The translations under genes and the position numbers were made by a program. Source: Ancylobacter koreensis (lineage in GTDB: Bacteria; Pseudomonadota; Alphaproteobacteria; Rhizobiales; Xanthobacteraceae). Taken from it: 64,000 nt of DNA. Positions within the stretch are counted from its first letter, which is position 1, and each line of letters opens with the position of its first letter. The DNA lies in NCBI RefSeq assembly GCF_023016525.1, contig NZ_JALKCG010000001.1, forward strand, positions 1-64,000, written 5' to 3'. The notes below the pieces were generated by a model that was given only the letters and a program-made list of their open reading frames with translations, had not been told where the DNA came from and made no database searches. This document shows, piece after piece, positions 1 to 17,091 of the stretch.

Positions 1-805
1 CCGCTCCGCACGCCCGAGAGGGAAAATCCAACCGTCAGGGCGAACTCACAGCTGGATAGAAGTTGGGGGCAACGTCACCAGTCGTCAGTATATTGTGGCA
101 ACCAGGCATCCCCGAGGGCGACATCCGCCGCCTCACCGAAAATGCGTGCTCTTCATATGACCGCAGACCAGAGCCACAAAAACGGTGATTTGCTGCCCCA
201 GAACCGCATCGACTCGCGCGAGATGACGCGCCGCCGTAATGACACGAGGAACGCCTACGATTGCATATCTGCGGCCGTCGCCCTTTATACAAAGAAGCGC
301 TTCATGCATGGACGATGCGTAATATTTCGACTTTCGACCTTGGCGTAGCTCGTGGGCGTTCTGGCTTGCGCAGAATGAAAATTTTCGTAGTCGGTGCTCG
401 CATCTCCGCTACTCAGATGAACGACGCCATCTATGTATTTTTCGAGAGTAGAGATTCGAGCATCCAATTCGTCAGCCCGCCGGAACTGCTTTGTTCCCGT
501 GCGGCGGCGTCAGTGACATAACCACTCATGAGACGGGAATATCGACCGATACGCCGATCCTGGATCGGATCCTCGTCGGAGAAAAGCGTCGCCGCCAACT
601 GCGTTTCGTCAGGTGTGCTGTCGGAGAAGGGGCATACGGCATCCGCCCGAATGAGATCGTCATCGCCAAGATGGGAGACGTCGGGTTCAAAAGTGCCGAA
701 ATCCGTCCGCTCGATAGTGATTGCGGGTTGCGCAATCGCACACACACCGCAGCCGACACGGATTCCGGTGTCTACCACATCGCGAATACCGAACGCGGCC
801 ATCAC
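1..805 (-). pseudogene. Decayed F420-hydrogenase/dehydrogenase beta-subunit-like gene
   Basis: On the minus strand, pieces of one protein can be read in successive frames. From 805 down to about 435 the product starts MMAAFGIRDVVDTGIRVGCG, has the Cys-rich GCGVCA motif, a CP dipeptide and the YVTDAAAREQSSSGG segment, then stops. Around 440-375 another frame gives YIDGVVHLSSGD. Around 350-137 a third frame gives GRKSKYYASSMHEALLCIKG and later YAIVGVPRV and ARHLARVD. A fourth, near 135-75, gives GEAADVALGDAWLPQYTDDW and a stop. The same segments occur in order in the intact gene at 3542-4723 (VGCGLC, SSGG, VDGVVQ, VGKPCD). At least three frameshifts and two stops make it non-functional. Arg replaces the conserved Cys after VGVP. 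The remnant runs off the left edge of the window. Confidence 0.8.
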
Positions 806-1157: not shown

Positions 1158-2162
1158 ATGAGCACACTCGGCCGCATCGCGAAGCGCGTACTGCCCGCCC
1201 CCCTCGTCCGCACGCTGAGGCGGTGGGCCCGACACCTGTCGCTGTGGCGCAACGGCGCTTATGATCGAGACCGCTTCGGCCGGCATTCCTATGCCCTCGG
1301 GCCGCCGTCGAACCGTGGTCAGCGCCGGGCGGCGCTGACCTTTATCTATCACCGCATCGAGAAGGGGCTGGCGCTGCCACAGCCGCGTGCGGGTTTCGGC
1401 GGCGACAGCGTCCGCGATCTCATCTCGGGCCTCGCGCGGTACGAGGCCAAGTTCGGCCGGGACGACCTCGGCGCGACCGTCGAGGGCGTGCTGCGCGATT
1501 ATGTCCGCTCTGGCCTGGGCGATCCTGTGGTCGCGAGAGAAGCGGGCCGGTTCCTGGCCGGCCGCCCGGACCTTCTGGCTGAACGAGCCGGCACGCTGTC
1601 GCTGACGCGCGACACCCTTTGTCCGGTTTCGCCGGATATCGCCATGCGCTTCATGGAAAGCCGCCACAGCCTGCGCAGCTATACCGGAGCTCCGCTGCCC
1701 CGCGAGCTGATCGAGCGCGCCTCGCTGCTGGCGCAGACGGCACCCTCGGTCTGCAACCGCCAGGCCGGGCGGCTCTACGTCACTAACGACGCTGCCCGGA
1801 TGCAGGAGGTTCTGTCTCACCAGAACGGCAATCGCGGCTTCGGTCACACGCTCGGGGCCGTGTTCATCGTCGCCGTGGATCTGAGCGCCTTCAATTCCGT
1901 GGGTGAGCGCAACCAGCCTTTCGTGGATGGCGGCATCTTCGCCATGTCCCTCGTCCTCGGCCTGCATGCTCTCGGCGTCGGTGCCTGCATGCTCAACTGG
2001 AGCAGCACGCGCGAAGCCGATCTGGCGCTTCGCCGCGCCTTCGGCATTCCCGACAGCCATGTCGCCATCACGATGGTAGGCGCTGGCGAGGTACCCGAAG
2101 GCCCGTTCAAGGTCGCCGCATCGCATCGCATCCCGCCGACCGACGTGCTGCACTGGCTGTAG
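1158..2162 (+). CDS. Nitroreductase-family protein of the polysaccharide locus
   Basis: A 334-residue protein. The C-terminal half (about residues 160-330) is a nitroreductase-fold FMN domain: SRHSLRSY at about 168, APSVCNRQ near 195, and the helix FVDGGIFAMSLVLGLHALGV near 255 followed by GACMLNW. The N-terminal 150 residues are basic and helical and are not part of the classical family, so the protein is longer than the usual 180-220 residues. It precedes a polysaccharide pyruvyl transferase and an F420-hydrogenase-beta-like protein on the same strand, which suggests a redox step on a glycan or its precursor. Family membership is clear; the substrate is unknown. The start codon has only a weak upstream Shine-Dalgarno sequence. 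Confidence 0.85.
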   Translation: MSTLGRIAKRVLPAPLVRTLRRWARHLSLWRNGAYDRDRFGRHSYALGPPSNRGQRRAALTFIYHRIEKGLALPQPRAGFGGDSVRDLISGLARYEAKFGRDDLGATVEGVLRDYVRSGLGDPVVAREAGRFLAGRPDLLAERAGTLSLTRDTLCPVSPDIAMRFMESRHSLRSYTGAPLPRELIERASLLAQTAPSVCNRQAGRLYVTNDAARMQEVLSHQNGNRGFGHTLGAVFIVAVDLSAFNSVGERNQPFVDGGIFAMSLVLGLHALGVGACMLNWSSTREADLALRRAFGIPDSHVAITMVGAGEVPEGPFKVAASHRIPPTDVLHWL

Positions 2163-2328
2163 AGCGTCCCTGGGCGTTTCAAATGGCTCCCGCGCCTGCT
2201 CAGAGACACAGACGTCAATGACATGATCGGTCGTGGCTCAGCATCCGACGCGCTAGAACAACCAGCGACACCTTCTCGTCTTCCCGACTGTTCATTATTG
2301 TGATTCACCGCATGTCGAAGCGGCTTGG

Positions 2329-3558
2329 ATGAGGTTCGCCACAGGCCTCAGGGATGCGCGTGTGAACGAGCTGAAGATCGGCCTGGTCTGGCATAATCTG
2401 AATTCCAGCAATTACGGCGTCGCCGCCCTTGCCGTGGCGCATATCGGGCTGCTCGTCGAGGCGGCCCGCGAATGCGGGCTCGAACCTCGCTTCGAGACGG
2501 TGGGCACGCGCGGCATGAGTGATATTGGCACCCGCGAGGAAACCGAACGTCTCTTCGACACGCGCATTACCCATGTCGATTATTCGCTGCGCACGCTGGT
2601 AAAGCGGCTGCTCAGGCTCGATCTGGGCATGGTCCGCCTGTTTCGCCGCTACCATATCGTGTTCGATATCGGCGAGGGCGACAGCTTCACGGACCTCTAC
2701 GGCCCGCGGCGCTTCATCGTGCAGATGTGTACCAAGACCTTCACGGTGTTGGCCGGCGTGCCGCTGGTCATCGCGCCGCAGACGCTCGGGCCGTTTCGCT
2801 CATTCGCCTCCCGGCGCGCGGCGACCTGGATCCTGAAGCGGTGCCGCTCCATCTACACGCGCGATGCCAGTTCGGCGACGCTCGCCGGCGAACTCGGCGT
2901 CGCGGCTACGGACCTCACCGATGTCGCCTTCGCGCTGCCTTATGACGCCGCGACACCGGCCCCTTCGAGCGTAGGCCTCAACGTGTCGGGCCTGCTCTAT
3001 AGCGGCGGCTACGACCGCAGCAACCAGTTCGGCCTGAGCATCGACTATCCCGCCTTCGTCGCGCGCGTCGTGGAGATGTTCCGGACAAAAGGGGCGAGCG
3101 TGCATCTCGTCGCCCATGTCATCGCGCCGGATAACGAGGTCGAGGACGACTACCGTGCCTGCGAAAAGGTGAAGGCGCTTTATGCGGACGACCCCGCCGT
3201 CGTGGTGGCGCCACGCTTCACCTCGCCAATGGACGCCAAATCGGGGATCTCGGGCTTCGGCTTCTTCGTCGGCTCGCGCATGCACGCCACAATCGCAGCG
3301 GTTTCCGCAGGCGTGCCGACGGTGCCGGTCGCCTACAGCAAGAAGTTCGCGCCGCTCTTCGAGGGCATCGGCTACCCGTTCACCCTGGACGCCCGCAGCG
3401 CGACGATCGAGGAACTGCTCGAAGCGATTTCCACGGCCTATGACGCGCGGGCGGAACTGGCGGCAAAGGCGCAGGCCGCCGCGCAGGCGGCCCGGACGAG
3501 ACTGGACATCTACCGGGACCGGCTGAAGGACGAGTTGCGCGATGCCAGACGCGCTTAG
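2329..3558 (+). CDS. Polysaccharide pyruvyl transferase family protein
   Basis: A 409-residue protein of the CsaB/WcaK-type pyruvyl transferase family, whose members move pyruvate from phosphoenolpyruvate onto sugars as a ketal, or act as related GT-B-like enzymes. Visible marks are the N-terminal strand KIGLVWHNLNSSNYGVAAL, DIGEGDSFTDLYG near 113, VIAPQTLGPF near 147, YTRDASS near 180 and the C-terminal GSRMHATIAAVSAGVP near 315. The start is uncertain: ATG at 2329 or GTG at 2362, which has a GGGA upstream. The last 17 bases overlap the start of the next gene, so the two are probably translationally coupled. It probably adds an acidic ketal to the exopolysaccharide; the acceptor cannot be told from sequence. 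Confidence 0.88.
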   Translation: MRFATGLRDARVNELKIGLVWHNLNSSNYGVAALAVAHIGLLVEAARECGLEPRFETVGTRGMSDIGTREETERLFDTRITHVDYSLRTLVKRLLRLDLGMVRLFRRYHIVFDIGEGDSFTDLYGPRRFIVQMCTKTFTVLAGVPLVIAPQTLGPFRSFASRRAATWILKRCRSIYTRDASSATLAGELGVAATDLTDVAFALPYDAATPAPSSVGLNVSGLLYSGGYDRSNQFGLSIDYPAFVARVVEMFRTKGASVHLVAHVIAPDNEVEDDYRACEKVKALYADDPAVVVAPRFTSPMDAKSGISGFGFFVGSRMHATIAAVSAGVPTVPVAYSKKFAPLFEGIGYPFTLDARSATIEELLEAISTAYDARAELAAKAQAAAQAARTRLDIYRDRLKDELRDARRA

Positions 3559-4723
3559 TACCGTCCTGCGCAACGGCATGTGCGTGGGCTGCGGGCTGTG
3601 CGCCACCGAGGCCGGCGAGATGCGCATGGATCCCAGCGGCTTCCTGCGCCCGGTCGCGCCCGCCCTTGCCGAGGCACGGGACGCCTGCCCCGGCTTTCAT
3701 GTCGCGCATCACAATGACGAGGCGCCCTACCATCTTCTCTGGGGACCTATCCGCAGCTGCGAGGTCGGCTATGCCACCGACGCTGCCTTCCGCCATGCCG
3801 GCTCTTCGGGCGGCGTCGTCACCACGCTCCTGCGCTTCCTGCTGGAGAGCGGACGGGTCGACGGCGTCGTGCAGATCGGCGCCGCGACCTCCGATCCGCT
3901 GCGCAACGAGACCTATGTCCATGCCAGCGTGGAGAGCCTGCTGCATCATGCCGGCTCGCGCTATGCGCCTTCCGCGCCGCTTGCCGCGCTGCGTGCGCTG
4001 ATCGGCAACGGCCGACGCTACGCCTTCGTCGGCAAGCCCTGCGATGTCGCTGCGCTACGCGCCATGACCCGGCTTCGGCCGGAATTCCGCGAGCAGTTCC
4101 CCTACCTGCTTTCCTTCATGTGCGCGGGCATACCCGGCGAGAAGGGAACGCGGGCGGTGCTGGACAGGCTCGGGCTCGACCCGGCCGAGGTGATCTCCTT
4201 CCGCTATCGCGGCAATGGCTGGCCCGGCCTCACCACGGCCGTGACTGCATCGGGCGAGGAGCGCTCGCTCACCTACAACGAGGCCTGGGGAAAGATGCTC
4301 AACCGGCATCTGCATCCCCGCTGCAAGATCTGCGCGGACGGCATCGGCGAGGCGGCTGACGTCGTGTGTGCCGACGCCTGGCACGCGACCGGGGACGGAT
4401 ACCCTTCCTTCGACGAGATGGACGGCCGGAGCCTCGTATTGGCGCGGACCGATCTGGGCGAAGAACTTGTGCAAGGTGCCGTCCATGCCGGCTACGTGCG
4501 GTGTGCGCCGCTCGATCCCGGCGCGATCGAGCGGATGCAGCCCTACCAGGCCAATCGCAAGCGGACCGCCCTCGCCCGCGCAGCGGCGCTGAAGCTGTTC
4601 GGCGTGCGGACGACGCGTTTTTCCGGCTATCGCCTTGTGCGAAATGCCTGCACCTATGGTCTCATCGCGAACGCGAAGGCATTCCTTGGAACGGTACATC
4701 GAAAGCTCGTGGGGCGTATCTAG
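3542..4723 (+). CDS. F420-hydrogenase/dehydrogenase beta-subunit-like protein
   Basis: A 393-residue protein with the FrhB/FdhB N- and C-terminal domains. The Cys cluster C14-x2-C17-x2-C20 (MCVGCGLC), an ACPG motif near 48, the SSGG turn near 90, VGKPCDVAALR near 163 and C261-x2-C264 suggest Fe-S and flavin binding. True F420-reducing hydrogenase or formate dehydrogenase partners are absent. Homologues are common beside pyruvyl transferases in polysaccharide loci, so the annotation 'hydrogenase' is misleading. It is probably a flavin/Fe-S oxidoreductase of a sugar-modification step. It overlaps the pyruvyl transferase gene and is the intact relative of the decayed copy at the left edge of the window. 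Confidence 0.88.
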   Translation: MPDALSTVLRNGMCVGCGLCATEAGEMRMDPSGFLRPVAPALAEARDACPGFHVAHHNDEAPYHLLWGPIRSCEVGYATDAAFRHAGSSGGVVTTLLRFLLESGRVDGVVQIGAATSDPLRNETYVHASVESLLHHAGSRYAPSAPLAALRALIGNGRRYAFVGKPCDVAALRAMTRLRPEFREQFPYLLSFMCAGIPGEKGTRAVLDRLGLDPAEVISFRYRGNGWPGLTTAVTASGEERSLTYNEAWGKMLNRHLHPRCKICADGIGEAADVVCADAWHATGDGYPSFDEMDGRSLVLARTDLGEELVQGAVHAGYVRCAPLDPGAIERMQPYQANRKRTALARAAALKLFGVRTTRFSGYRLVRNACTYGLIANAKAFLGTVHRKLVGRI

Positions 4724-4804: not shown

Positions 4805-5980
4805 ATGACAGCGAGTAACGCGCCGCCGCATGGCGAGCTCGCCGCGGGCTTCCCCCGTGCCGTGACCATACTCACCTGCGAATTTGACCCGTTTCCCGGC
4901 GGTATCGCGACCTATTGCACACGCATGGCGCAAACGCTGGACGCGGCCGGCGTTGTCGTCGACGTGATCTGTCCCGCCTATCCCGATCTCGCCTCCGCCA
5001 CGGACCCGGGCAGCATGCCGGGCGACATTTTCACCCGCCGGCTGCTCGGCCACCATTCGATTCCGGCGAAGGCGGTACCTACCATGCTGCGCACCCTGCG
5101 CGGGGGCGGCGCGGACAAGATCGTGCTGGCGGCAGACATTCGCAGTGTGCTGTTCATGCATGTCACGCGCCGGCTGCACGGGCGGCGCTATCTCGCCATG
5201 GTGCATGGCAGCGAGGCGGCCAAGTTCCGCCCGGGGTCCCTGCTGTACCGATTGGTGCGGGGCGCCTATTTTGGCGCGGAGCGGGTCAATTACAATTCGC
5301 AGGCGACCCGAGCGATCTTCCACGCCGCTTTCGGCGCGCCACCCGAAGAGCGGGTGACGTATCTCGGCGTTGATCCCGGCTGGTTCGAGGAGGCACCGGG
5401 CCCCTTCGATCACCCGCTTCTTGCGCAGCTTCCTGCAGGCGCACAGGTCGTCTGCTCGGTTGGCCGTATCGAGCCACGCAAGGGTCATGTCGAGGCCGTC
5501 CGCGCCCTGGCCAGGATGCGGGACGACATGCAGACGGGCGAACTCATTTACGTCGTCGCCGGCAAGCCGGAGGAACCAGCCTTCGCCGAGCGGATCGAAG
5601 CGGAGGCCCGTCGCCTCGGGGTGAACGCGATCCTCGCCGGCCGCTTGTCCACCGACGATATCAAGCGGCTTTATCGGCGCGCCGCCTGCCATGTTCTCCT
5701 CGCTCAGCCGATGCCGGGCAAGGTCGAGGGATTCGGCCTGGTGCTGGCCGAGGCGGCCGCCCAGGGCTGCCCATCGGTCGCCACCAACGAGGGCGGCATC
5801 CCGGAGGTTATCGCAGGCTGCGGCGCCCTTGTGCCGGCCGGCGACACGCCGGCTGCGGCGCGGGCGATACAGGCCTATCTGTCGGACGCCGCCTCGCGCG
5901 CCCGTGCCTCCGCCGCATCAAGGGAGCGGGCGAGGAGCTTCACGTGGCAGCGCTGCGCCGACGCGACGTTCCGCAGGTGA
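4805..5980 (+). CDS. Glycosyltransferase family 4
   Basis: A 391-residue GT-B fold glycosyltransferase. The N-terminal domain has the donor-lobe glycine loop FDPFPGGIATYCTRMAQTL near 25. The C-terminal domain starts at CSVGRIEPRKGHVEAVRA near 218 and has the nucleotide-sugar signature EGFGLVLAEAAAQGCPSVAT followed by NEGGIPEVI near 310-338. It is a cytosolic enzyme that adds a sugar from an NDP-sugar to a lipid-linked repeat unit. It is the last plus-strand gene of this segment, and a terminator-like hairpin lies about 220 bases downstream. Donor and linkage cannot be predicted from sequence alone. Confidence 0.88.
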   Translation: MTASNAPPHGELAAGFPRAVTILTCEFDPFPGGIATYCTRMAQTLDAAGVVVDVICPAYPDLASATDPGSMPGDIFTRRLLGHHSIPAKAVPTMLRTLRGGGADKIVLAADIRSVLFMHVTRRLHGRRYLAMVHGSEAAKFRPGSLLYRLVRGAYFGAERVNYNSQATRAIFHAAFGAPPEERVTYLGVDPGWFEEAPGPFDHPLLAQLPAGAQVVCSVGRIEPRKGHVEAVRALARMRDDMQTGELIYVVAGKPEEPAFAERIEAEARRLGVNAILAGRLSTDDIKRLYRRAACHVLLAQPMPGKVEGFGLVLAEAAAQGCPSVATNEGGIPEVIAGCGALVPAGDTPAAARAIQAYLSDAASRARASAASRERARSFTWQRCADATFRR

Positions 5981-6183: not shown

Positions 6184-7236
6184 TTAGCGAAAAGGCACCA
6201 AAAGCCGCCGACGACGCGCCGGCTTTTTTAACTTCGCGACCGACGTAACGCCTTCCGCTTTTGATATTAAATAGAGACCAATCATAATCAGAATCGCAAC
6301 TCTCGCCGAAGTCGAATCTGGACTTACTGTGGTATACACCATCAGAAACGCGGATAGCGGCTTGTATGCAAAACCTTTAGTATTTACACACATATGTATC
6401 ATTACGATGTAGAAAATCATCGCCGGTATTGCACCAAGGAAAAGACCGAAGGCGAGATACAGACAATGAACGGACAAACCCTCTCTATCCTGCGTATACC
6501 TGAACTCGACAAATTCAGAAGATACATCTTCATTTAAAGTAAATGGTGTATACGAAAGTATTTCTAACGATCTATAATTCATGAATGCGCGCTCATAATT
6601 TGAAATACTACCATATATGTATTCCAGATTGTTTAAATATTGTAGAATATCAATTATATAGGCATAAATTAATCCGAATGCAAATAATCCAATGTATTGA
6701 ACTATTCTTGGTATCGGAACATTTCTTTCTAAAGAAAATATTACGGCTACGATTGAGCATAATGTTATGCCTCTAGCGGACACCTGCTGTGACACTACAA
6801 TGTCAGCAATAACAAATATCATAAATATAAATATCTTATATTTTATTGCCAAATTTGAAATAACCGCCGCACCCCATGTGTACTGAAAACTTGGAGCGTC
6901 GTATTTATTTTTATAGTCAATCGACGATTTAGAGAATTCATTTAACGAAAGGACAACAAGAGAAAATAGCATCACAGCTCGAATTTGTCTCGCAATCGTC
7001 ATGTCGAAAGGATTGCTTAAGGCAGCAAGAATAGCAAGAAAGATAAAAATCAAATGGTACGCGCTTTTATAGAAGCCGTACGCGAAAATTATCACTACAA
7101 ATAAAAATAGTAAAACAGATATTAAGAAATTTATCTTGCCGTTCTTAAAACTAAGAACGGATATCAAATAGTATAAGTAAAGTAAAATAAAAATTTCAAC
7201 TATTGGACTTAGTATAAACATATTAATTTGATCCAA
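6184..7236 (-). CDS. Wzy/EpsG-like polysaccharide polymerase (membrane)
   Basis: A 350-residue, very hydrophobic protein with about nine or ten membrane segments and one larger soluble loop near residues 210-260, which contains YRSLEILSYTPF and YTQDREG. The topology and an R-rich cytosolic tail (RRRRLLVPFR) fit an O-antigen or exopolysaccharide polymerase of the Wzy/EpsG type. No catalytic motif defines that family, so the call rests on topology and context. The gene is strikingly AT-rich and uses A/T-ending codons (Ile, Lys, Asn, Tyr), unlike every neighbour, which points to recent acquisition. The start codon lies in AT-rich DNA without an obvious Shine-Dalgarno. Confidence 0.7.
   Translation of the reverse strand: MDQINMFILSPIVEIFILLYLYYLISVLSFKNGKINFLISVLLFLFVVIIFAYGFYKSAYHLIFIFLAILAALSNPFDMTIARQIRAVMLFSLVVLSLNEFSKSSIDYKNKYDAPSFQYTWGAAVISNLAIKYKIFIFMIFVIADIVVSQQVSARGITLCSIVAVIFSLERNVPIPRIVQYIGLFAFGLIYAYIIDILQYLNNLEYIYGSISNYERAFMNYRSLEILSYTPFTLNEDVSSEFVEFRYTQDREGLSVHCLYLAFGLFLGAIPAMIFYIVMIHMCVNTKGFAYKPLSAFLMVYTTVSPDSTSARVAILIMIGLYLISKAEGVTSVAKLKKPARRRRLLVPFR
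6200..6229 (+). terminator. Rho-independent terminator-like hairpin
   Basis: AAAAGCCG pairs with CGGCTTTT across a 12-base loop, followed on the plus strand by a run of six T. It would stop transcription from the plus-strand glycosyltransferase operon. It lies inside the 3' end of the convergent minus-strand membrane protein gene, near its stop codon. Confidence 0.55.
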
Positions 7237-14745: not shown

Positions 14746-17091
14746 ATGCGGGATGAAGGCTTGGAGGGAGATTCGGCCGGGGCACGCTCGCGGCAATTGC
14801 CCGCGATCGCGGAGAACCGCGCCGTATCGACCCGTACCGAAGGCGCCGGCTACGGGCCCGGCGGCTATCCCGTCACCGAGCCCATCTACGAATCGGAGCT
14901 GGCCGCGGCGCTGCACTATCTGATCGGCATCGCGTGGAAATGGCGGACCCTGATCCTCGGCACCGCCGGCGCCGCCTTCGTCGTCGGCGTGATCTACTGC
15001 TTCCTGGCGACGCCCCTCTATTCCGCCATCGTCCGCATCCAGATCGACCGAGAGCCTGGCAAGATCATCGACGGCGGCTCGACCTCACCCACCGAGCAGG
15101 GCGGCACCGAGTTCCAGAAGACCCAGTACGAGTTGCTGAAGAGCCGGGGCATGTCCGAGCGCGTTGTGGCGTCGCTGGCGCTCGACCAGGACCGTAACTT
15201 CTCCGTCCCCACGCCGGGATTGATCGGCAGCCTGCTCGGCATCTTCTCCGATACGTCGCAGGAGGCCGATACCGGGGCGGCACAGGAGCGCGCGCGGGCG
15301 GTGGCGGTAGGCCGTATCCAGCAGAATGTCGAAATACGCCCGATCACGGTCTCCCGCCTCGTGGACATCGAGTACACGGACCCGTCCTCGCAGCGAGCCG
15401 CCGCCATCGCCAACGCCTATGCGGACGCCTATGTCGCCTCGAACCTCGACAAGCGCTTCGAGGCGAGCTCCTACGCGAAGGTGTTCCTGGAAGACCAGAT
15501 CAAGCAGCTCAAGCTCCGGCTGGAGGAATCCGAGAAGGCGATGATTGCCTTCGCCGAGAGCGAGGACATGGTCGAGACCAGCGACAAGACCTCCATCGCC
15601 GAGAACAATCTCGCCGCCGCGAATGCCGCGCTCGGCCAATTGATCTCCAACCGGATCCGCGACGAGGAGACGTGGAAGCAGGTGGCGAACTCGACCGCGA
15701 TCAACCTGCCCCAGCTGCTCACCAACAATGTCATCGACGGCCTGCGCACCCAGCGCAACGAGCTCAAGCGCGACTATGAGGAGAAGCTGGAGACCTTCAA
15801 GCCGGGCTATCCGGCCATGGTCGAGATCTCCAAGAAGATCGCCGAGCTCGACCGCCAGCTCGCCACCGAGGTGAACACGATCCGCAGTTCGTTGAAAGCG
15901 GCCTATGAATCGTCGGCCAACCAGGAAGCGCAGATGCGCGCCCGGATCGACGAACTGCGCGCCGAGGTCATCGAGCTGCAGAAGAAGAACGTGCGCTACA
16001 ACATCTTGCAGCGGGAGGTGACGTCCAACCGAAACCTCTACAACGACCTTCTGCAGCGCTATAAGGAAGTCGACGTCGCCAGCGGCGTCGGAACCAACAA
16101 CGTCTTCATCGTCGACCGCGCCCTCGCCCCGCCCTCTCCCTCCTATCCGCGCACGCTGCTCATCCTCGCGGGCGCACTCGCAGTGGGACTGCTTGGCGGT
16201 TTCGGCGCTGCCAATCTCATCGAGCTGCTCGACGACCGCATCCGCAATCCCGAGGACGCGGAGAAGGCCACCGGCCTTCCGGTACTCGGTATCGTGCCGC
16301 GTTCGGAATTCGAGAACGGGCTTATGGCCGAACTCGCCGATCCGCGCTCGCCGGTCGCAGAAGCCTATCGCTCGCTGGCGACCTCGCTCCAGTTCTCGAC
16401 CGAATACGGTCTTCCCCGCACGCTGGTGCTCACCAGCGCCGGCGCGTCCGAAGGCAAGTCGACCACCGCCATCGCGCTGGCACGCCATTTCGCCGTGACC
16501 GGCAAGAAGGTCCTGCTCATCGACGCGGACCTGCGAAAGCCCTCGGTCCATGCCAAGATCGGCCTCGACAACGCCGTCGGCCTCTCCAATTGCCTGACCG
16601 GAATGGCCACGCTCGAAGAGGTGACCCAGCGGACGGAGATCCACAATCTGTTCTTCATCGCCTCGGGCCCGCTTCCTCCCAACGCGGCGGACATTCTCGG
16701 CGGAACACGGGTGTTCACGCTGATTTCCGTGGCGCTTGAGACCTATGACCTGGTGGTTTTCGACAGCCCGCCCATGCTCAGCATCGCCGATGCACAGCTG
16801 CTTGGCGCGGCGGCCCACGCGACGATCTTCGTCGCCGGCGCCGGCGACAGTCGTCGGGCGGTCGCCCGCAACGCGCTGCGCCGCCTCCAGCTCGCCCGCG
16901 CCCTGACGATCGGCCTCGTCCTCACCAAGTTCGACGCCCGCAGTTCGCGCTACGGCTATGGGTATGGTGCGTACGGCTATGGCTACGGCTATGGGCAGGA
17001 GCAGGACGGCGTCGGCTCGGGCGGGGTGAAGGCGCTGCTCCCGAAGTTAAAACGGCGCGATTCGAAGTCGAACGAGTCCGAGCTGGTATGA
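14746..17091 (+). CDS. Wzc/GumC-type polysaccharide co-polymerase with tyrosine kinase domain
   Basis: A 781-residue inner-membrane protein. A cytosolic N-terminus is followed by membrane helix 1 near 66-88, a Wzz-type periplasmic domain with long coiled coil to about 450, and helix 2 near 469-491. The BY-kinase domain has Walker A SAGASEGKST near 565, Walker A' VLLIDADLRKPS near 589 and Walker B YDLVVFDSPPML near 667. The tail has a tyrosine/glycine cluster (YGYGYGAYGYGYGYG, residues 736-750), the expected autophosphorylation zone and probable CpsB target. It controls chain length and export together with the Wza-like protein encoded upstream. Confidence 0.93.
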   Translation: MRDEGLEGDSAGARSRQLPAIAENRAVSTRTEGAGYGPGGYPVTEPIYESELAAALHYLIGIAWKWRTLILGTAGAAFVVGVIYCFLATPLYSAIVRIQIDREPGKIIDGGSTSPTEQGGTEFQKTQYELLKSRGMSERVVASLALDQDRNFSVPTPGLIGSLLGIFSDTSQEADTGAAQERARAVAVGRIQQNVEIRPITVSRLVDIEYTDPSSQRAAAIANAYADAYVASNLDKRFEASSYAKVFLEDQIKQLKLRLEESEKAMIAFAESEDMVETSDKTSIAENNLAAANAALGQLISNRIRDEETWKQVANSTAINLPQLLTNNVIDGLRTQRNELKRDYEEKLETFKPGYPAMVEISKKIAELDRQLATEVNTIRSSLKAAYESSANQEAQMRARIDELRAEVIELQKKNVRYNILQREVTSNRNLYNDLLQRYKEVDVASGVGTNNVFIVDRALAPPSPSYPRTLLILAGALAVGLLGGFGAANLIELLDDRIRNPEDAEKATGLPVLGIVPRSEFENGLMAELADPRSPVAEAYRSLATSLQFSTEYGLPRTLVLTSAGASEGKSTTAIALARHFAVTGKKVLLIDADLRKPSVHAKIGLDNAVGLSNCLTGMATLEEVTQRTEIHNLFFIASGPLPPNAADILGGTRVFTLISVALETYDLVVFDSPPMLSIADAQLLGAAAHATIFVAGAGDSRRAVARNALRRLQLARALTIGLVLTKFDARSSRYGYGYGAYGYGYGYGQEQDGVGSGGVKALLPKLKRRDSKSNESELV

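Follow-up and report, generated by a model that had tools for sequence, protein, structure and literature searches.

A putative route to lactyl ethers in an exopolysaccharide locus of Ancylobacter koreensis, in which a polysaccharide pyruvyltransferase stands beside two apparently interchangeable reductases

Introduction

In the synthesis of UDP-MurNAc, MurA transfers an enolpyruvyl group from phosphoenolpyruvate to a sugar hydroxyl, and MurB then reduces it in a flavin-dependent step. Lactic-acid groups are found on many polysaccharides of bacteria and cyanobacteria, those of Klebsiella K22 and Shigella among them; the openly available text of published reports also mentions lactic-acid decoration of the Enterococcus faecalis capsule (PMC3060912), lactic-acid groups in Salinivibrio and others (PMC8466920), and nosturonic acid in Nostoc commune and Vibrio alginolyticus (PMC5983295). 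The open literature searched yielded no gene pair to which lactyl-ether synthesis is assigned; subscription journals may already propose a pathway. Here we analyze a 64,000-nucleotide stretch of the Ancylobacter koreensis genome (the window: positions 1 to 64,000 of contig NZ_JALKCG010000001.1, assembly GCF_023016525.1), in which the gene for a PF04230 polysaccharide pyruvyltransferase (PST; 2329-3558, + strand, 409 aa) lies between those for a nitroreductase-like protein (NR; 1158-2162, + strand, 334 aa) and an FrhB-like flavo-iron-sulphur protein (3542-4723, + strand, 393 aa). What sets this locus apart is that a single PST has both reductases next to it. From comparisons of loci and glycan structures, we think it probable that the PST and a reductase make an O-(1-carboxyethyl) (lactyl) ether on an exopolysaccharide sugar.

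Results

The original prediction, made from the letters of the window, had described three co-directional genes, two of them overlapping, and had read them as one module in which the two redox proteins form a pair. The gene arrangement was as described: all three open reading frames are intact and on the same strand, those of the PST and the FrhB-like protein overlap by 17 bp, and a 166-bp spacer separates NR from the PST. The module itself did not survive a count of co-occurrence. The NR alignment was scanned against named genomes, and the loci of the best 80 of 162 relatives were searched for PST and FrhB with custom profiles (PST threshold, E<1e-6). A PST was present in 36/80 NR loci, within 700 bp in 32, and was downstream of NR and co-directional with it in 29 of the 36, while the profile scan of these named loci detected FrhB in none (0/80). 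Reading of the FrhB loci other than the window's own, in wide context, revealed no NR (0/24). Two E. coli plasmids are partial exceptions: pBDSF8-3_3 has a PST behind a 216-bp annotated piece of NR together with a separate FrhB-PST pair, and p30COLEC-2 has an NR-PST pair together with a PST behind a C-terminal piece of FrhB. Judging from these loci, the NR-PST-FrhB trio is not a conserved unit, and the recurring unit appears to be a PST with one reductase, either NR or FrhB. Nor do the redox proteins look like an obligatory pair, since PST-NR and PST-FrhB combinations recur separately and the two reductases seem to replace each other.

The association of NR with a PST extends over a wide range of bacteria. 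Outside Hyphomicrobiales and Rhodobacterales, 34/43 NR loci contained a PST, and the PST-bearing loci include those of cyanobacteria, Verrucomicrobiota, Planctomycetota, Bacteroidota and Betaproteobacteria. Window-like NR proteins (E<=1e-15) were found in 4/296 genomes of the window's own family, and in 4/4 they were adjacent or fused to a PST. Ten annotated plasmid NR regions contained a PST in six cases, two of them fusions, and an unannotated E. faecalis plasmid locus, read with profiles, contained a PST that was not adjacent. PST-NR fusion proteins occur at three loci in all (G203, Gemmobacter and Paracoccus alcaliphilus). The PST-less NR homologues of Hyphomicrobiales and Rhodobacterales (L044, L046, L048 and their relatives) form clades of their own and probably act on another substrate.

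FrhB-like proteins were examined in the same way. PF04432 matched in 32/385 genomes of the window's class, and 20/29 class loci were read over a wide context of 7.6-12.5 kb, which replaced an earlier narrow-flank reading that was too short; left out were eight low-scoring matches, one locus on a short contig and, the window's own remnant apart, six weaker matches without a locus. We take the eight low-scoring matches to be BciB-like. Among the wide-context loci of class and family, the window included, a PST was present in 8/25, and NR occurred only in the window. On plasmids, 94 records matched, and among the 11 that we read a PST was in the region in 8/11 and a nitroreductase was listed in none. 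The FrhB-like genes of Rhizobium gallicum and Pseudomonas MPC6 lie near transport or catabolic genes in regions that lack a PST, and were regarded as serving another purpose. Sixteen FrhB-like proteins of the class (L153-L168) carry the CxxCxxC...CP motif and have no PST within 7.6-12.5 kb. In Paracoccus yeei and Sinorhizobium medicae (L016, L017), the surroundings of a PST-FrhB pair do not readily suggest a capsule locus: its neighbors are an inositol-3-phosphate synthase, a histidine phosphatase, an epimerase, and dehydrogenases of the Gfo/Idh/MocA and zinc-binding types. The product of this pair is possibly a lactyl-modified small glycoside.

Most PST sequences had been gathered via NR or FrhB, so that the composition of PST clades is biased, and a search starting from the PST is less so. 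Window-like PSTs (E<=1e-10) were found in 6/385 class and 5/296 family genomes, the A. koreensis genome being in both sets, which makes 10 genomes. A reductase lay within about 4 kb in 7/10 of these genomes, and in 6/6 at E<1e-30. As a background, 24 PF04230 matches in 19/115 class genomes were inspected, and NR or FrhB was present within the 1.5-kb flanks of two, the window's own included. Because background pairing is just 2/24, pairing with a reductase marks a subset of PSTs.

Similar PSTs were found with different partners, and NR and FrhB therefore look interchangeable, replacing one another beside the PST. The loci of Loktanella (FrhB) and Pseudorhodobacter (NR) match in layout, with a flippase, the reductase, the PST, a reversed GT2 glycosyltransferase, an acyltransferase and the exosortase XrtD, and their PSTs are 71.3% identical. 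Likewise, the order wzx-FrhB-PST-glycosyltransferase in Klebsiella aerogenes p35_D corresponds to wzx-NR-PST-glycosyltransferase in E. coli p30COLEC-2; among E. coli genomes, no match to the FrhB-PST DNA of K. aerogenes was found. E. coli plasmids also carry PSTs with identities of 86.2% and 99.7% that are preceded by NR, by FrhB or by pieces of these genes, and recombination between PST copies could explain the 99.7% value. A quick PST tree of 74 rows required at least 11 changes of partner label, a count that covers both NR and FrhB labels and includes 'far' partners. In this tree WcaK was entered twice, three loci appear in two overlapping copies each, and the p30COLEC-2 PST that follows a piece of FrhB takes its label from the distant NR.

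Glycan structures at a few loci allowed gene content to be compared with chemistry. The O124/O164 O-antigen cluster of E. coli includes an FrhB-PST pair (5/5426 E. coli genomes, by DNA similarity, which would miss distant relatives). The lactylated Shigella dysenteriae O-antigen is presumably that of type 3, identical to O124. The available part of PMC10609480 gives 4-O-[(R)-1-carboxyethyl]-D-glucose as a component of an S. dysenteriae O-antigen. The O124/O164 PST (L038, 8148-9283) is annotated in two pieces in 3/5 genomes and as one gene in 2/5; thus, some natural O124 strains may be without the modification. For Klebsiella, where 74 K structures were compared with genes, the accessible text of PMC4616057 names K8, K22, K37 and K66 as the only types with a PST gene but no pyruvate; among the 79 capsule (cps) loci, nitroreductase is counted twice and F420 hydrogenase once. 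The accessible text of PMC3857182 describes the K22 and K37 cps genes as identical in content but for one frameshift, and a paper of 1988 that it cites names 4-O-[(S)-1-carboxyethyl]-D-glucuronic acid, for the K22 capsule, in its title. It would fit these data if the two Klebsiella nitroreductases were those of K22 and K37. In the open literature searched, 'pyruvyl transferase' and 'coenzyme F420' occurred together solely in PMC4616057, the available text of which does not discuss the pairing. The gene-structure matches for O124 and Klebsiella are correlations, few in number, and it is those for O124 and K22 that point to a pathway proceeding from an enolpyruvyl to a lactyl group.

The three proteins themselves are consistent with a transferase and two candidate reductases. 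NR belongs to the nitroreductase fold (PF00881, E 6.6e-16, 59.4 bits) and consists of an all-helical N-terminal domain (residues ~1-145) followed by the nitroreductase domain (~146-334), which carries the NR family motif PSVCNRQ, in line with the invariant positions of the alignment; the AlphaFold2 model of NR has a confidence (pLDDT) of 93.7. Profile matches to nitroreductases of the PDB cover residues ~145-334, the best Foldseek E value is 1e-9, and the enone reductase CLA-ER (4qlx) is among the structural matches by both methods. NR is thus a candidate reductase partner of a PST. The PST scores 100.7 bits against PF04230 (E 1.7e-28; curated cut-off, 25.3) and has Arg178, Asp198 and His319, residues also conserved in WcaK, but it falls below the equivalog cut-offs of both CsaB (70 bits against 213.1; E 2.1e-19) and WcaK (38.1 bits against 399). 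The PST alignment matched no PDB entry in a sequence search. The PST model has a GT-B-like fold and matches the yeast pyruvyltransferase Pvg1p (5ax7) at rank 18 of its PDB matches (E 9e-8). Because its first nine residues are poorly modelled, the PST may start slightly downstream.

The FrhB-like protein belongs to the FrhB/FdhB domain superfamily, with matches to PF04432 (E 1e-31) and PF04422 (E 3.2e-19), an N-terminal CxxCxxC...CP motif of the [4Fe-4S] type (C14, C17, C20, C49) and further conserved cysteines at C194, C261 and C264. Its profile matches include 8riu, 8rja and chains of FrhB, FdhB, Fsr and HCAR (5dqr). The earlier remark that F420-hydrogenase partners are absent was borne out, in that none was present among the neighboring open reading frames scanned. 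The protein scores 53.5 bits against an frhB equivalog cut-off of 331.5, and cofD (TIGR01819), the one F420 biosynthesis gene searched for, had no match in this genome (0/1; completeness 99.31%). These tests support the view that the window protein is not an F420-hydrogenase subunit.

The genome holds two further features that had been missed. One is a decayed second FrhB-like gene at approximately 81-787 (- strand), between the contig end and NR and on the strand opposite to NR, which survives as pieces in three frames with its middle stretch gone, and ends near a multi-copy repeat. Its best match is K. aerogenes p35_D (E 5e-31), and it belongs to the K. aerogenes p35_D/E. coli O124/Sinorhizobium subtype, which is longer than the intact copy. 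The repeat, of 73-78 bp, occupies positions 1-78 of the window and recurs on contigs C1, C6, C12, C13 and C16, at seven places in all, four of which are contig starts; it breaks the assembly here and probably represents an end of a mobile element present in several copies. The other feature is a second PST, on contig C12. A third PF04230 match, on contig C15, lies inside a longer frame whose extra sequence was taken for a glycosyltransferase, and we did not treat this match as a module.

In the simplest readings of the window, either both reductases act on its PST, which would be a case of redundancy, or NR serves the C12 PST, with the decayed FrhB copy perhaps being that PST's own reductase. 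The latter leads to a reading that we regard as possible but doubtful, namely that two lactyl-ether systems are overlaid, FrhB serving the window PST and NR serving a C12 PST formerly partnered by the decayed long FrhB. This is a special form of the lactyl-ether explanation and does not exclude it. It is consistent with the nearest relatives of the C12 PST, which are NR-fused and long-FrhB-paired PSTs (~35% identity), with the long subtype of the decayed gene, and with the finding that both PF04432 matches of the genome and its one window-like NR match are on C11 and none on C12. Against it, the adjacency of C11 and C12 is not demonstrable, since the 77-bp contig end common to both occurs at seven places.

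The three genes and the next glycosyltransferase gene have a uniform composition, with 65-69% GC and 81-83% GC at third codon positions. This glycosyltransferase (group 1; 4805-5980, + strand) is downstream of FrhB and co-directional with it, and the next 13 kb encode an epimerase, an O-antigen-ligase-like protein, more glycosyltransferases and a Wzz/Wzc-type chain-length protein with a kinase-type AAA domain (14746-17091, + strand). These neighbors identify the region as an exopolysaccharide locus. Of the glycan-tailoring trio originally proposed, the glycan locus stands and a tailoring role is likely, but the trio as a unit was not retained. An Ile/Leu/Phe-rich protein of 350 aa without a Pfam match (6184-7236, - strand) is possibly a Wzy-like polymerase.

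Discussion

We propose that the PF04230 enzyme would first move a three-carbon unit from phosphoenolpyruvate onto one sugar hydroxyl and release an enolpyruvyl ether, a second hydroxyl not closing the usual pyruvate ketal. A flavoenzyme would then reduce the C=C bond of the enolpyruvyl group to give the lactyl ether, as MurB does after MurA. This could be the FMN protein of the nitroreductase fold, for which NAD(P)H would be the expected donor, or the FrhB-like FAD/[4Fe-4S] protein, for which ferredoxin would be expected because the genome is without cofD. As a precedent for the FrhB-like step we consider HCAR (5dqr), an FrhB homologue that we take to carry out reducing chemistry. It is conceivable, although we think it improbable, that reductase-paired PF04230 proteins are enolpyruvyl transferases in general, with NR or FrhB turning their product into a lactyl ether, and that the choice of reductase sets either the stereochemistry (R with FrhB as in O124, S with NR as in K22 and K37) or the electron donor, in which case the window locus, with its two reductases, might produce both epimers or alternate between donors.

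Several observations weigh against lactyl-ether synthesis by a PST and a reductase. No residues were found in the PST that separate reductase-paired from ketal-forming enzymes. Both reductase families have other jobs, as 44 NR loci, chiefly of Hyphomicrobiales (25) and Rhodobacterales (10), and 17/25 FrhB loci are without a PST. Most of the PST-less proteins in the tree of NR sequences belong to one of two clades, with 28 and 9 rows, and the window NR, on a long branch, is sister to the 28-row clade (support 83). Three of the 10 genomes with a window-like PST have no reductase nearby, and the PST tree is quick, with many weak forks and some long-branched rows. On the chemical side, the O124 FrhB is of the longer subtype and only 22% identical to the window protein; the identity of the S. 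dysenteriae type 3 and O124 antigens enters as our assumption, as do lactyl ethers in K37 and K66. The K8 locus has a PST without pyruvate, which is unexplained, and we know of no lactyl ether in K8.

The main alternative to a lactyl ether, which we judge unlikely, is that the PST forms an ordinary pyruvate ketal, while NR and FrhB oxidise or reduce the sugar ring, a nucleotide sugar or another target in the locus. PF04230 members of known function presumably make ketals, WcaK shares the conserved Arg, Asp and His, and in the colanic acid cluster of E. coli none of the genes shown next to that of WcaK encodes a reductase. It would be difficult to reconcile this alternative with the many loci where a reductase is fused to or directly adjoins the PST, with the exchange of two unrelated reductases beside similar PSTs, and with K22 and K37, which in the available part of the Klebsiella survey have a PST but no pyruvate. 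A single electron-transfer complex of NR and FrhB, passing NAD(P)H electrons from NR to FrhB or in reverse, is implied by a check suggested with the original prediction. It agrees with their close and co-directional genes in the window but is very improbable, as no other locus in the sets read joins them (0/80 and 0/24) and each pairs with a PST alone.

If lactyl-ether synthesis by a PST and a reductase is confirmed, a PST with NR or FrhB would indicate a lactyl ether and a PST alone a pyruvate ketal, so that surface chemistry would become predictable from sequence. It would also make sense of the 'F420 hydrogenase' and 'nitroreductase' annotations that are puzzling in capsule loci, and would exemplify how unrelated reductases can take each other's place.

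Among known systems, MurA/MurB resembles the proposed pathway in its chemistry, enolpyruvyl transfer followed by flavin-dependent reduction to a lactyl ether, but the window enzymes come from other families in both steps, belong to exopolysaccharide or O-antigen loci and include two alternative reductases. The window PST shares PF04230 and the conserved Arg, Asp and His with CsaB and WcaK, and a fold match with Pvg1p; it differs from CsaB and WcaK in scoring under their equivalog cut-offs, in the reductase that stands beside or is fused to the PST at such loci, and in a product that would be reduced rather than a ketal. The FrhB-like protein has PF04422, PF04432 and the [4Fe-4S]-type motif in common with FrhB, FpoF, FdhB, Fsr and HCAR; unlike these relatives, it has no hydrogenase partners beside it, scores far under the frhB cut-off and is encoded in a genome without cofD. 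NR shares the nitroreductase fold with CLA-ER, which offers an enone reductase precedent, and with other FMN nitroreductases, and is distinguished from them by its extra helical N-terminal domain and its polysaccharide context. Finally, the E. coli O124/O164 cluster (wzx-FrhB-PST-glycosyltransferase) resembles the window in that an FrhB-like gene directly adjoins a PF04230-type gene in a glycan locus, whereas its FrhB is of the longer subtype, its order is FrhB-PST and it has no NR.

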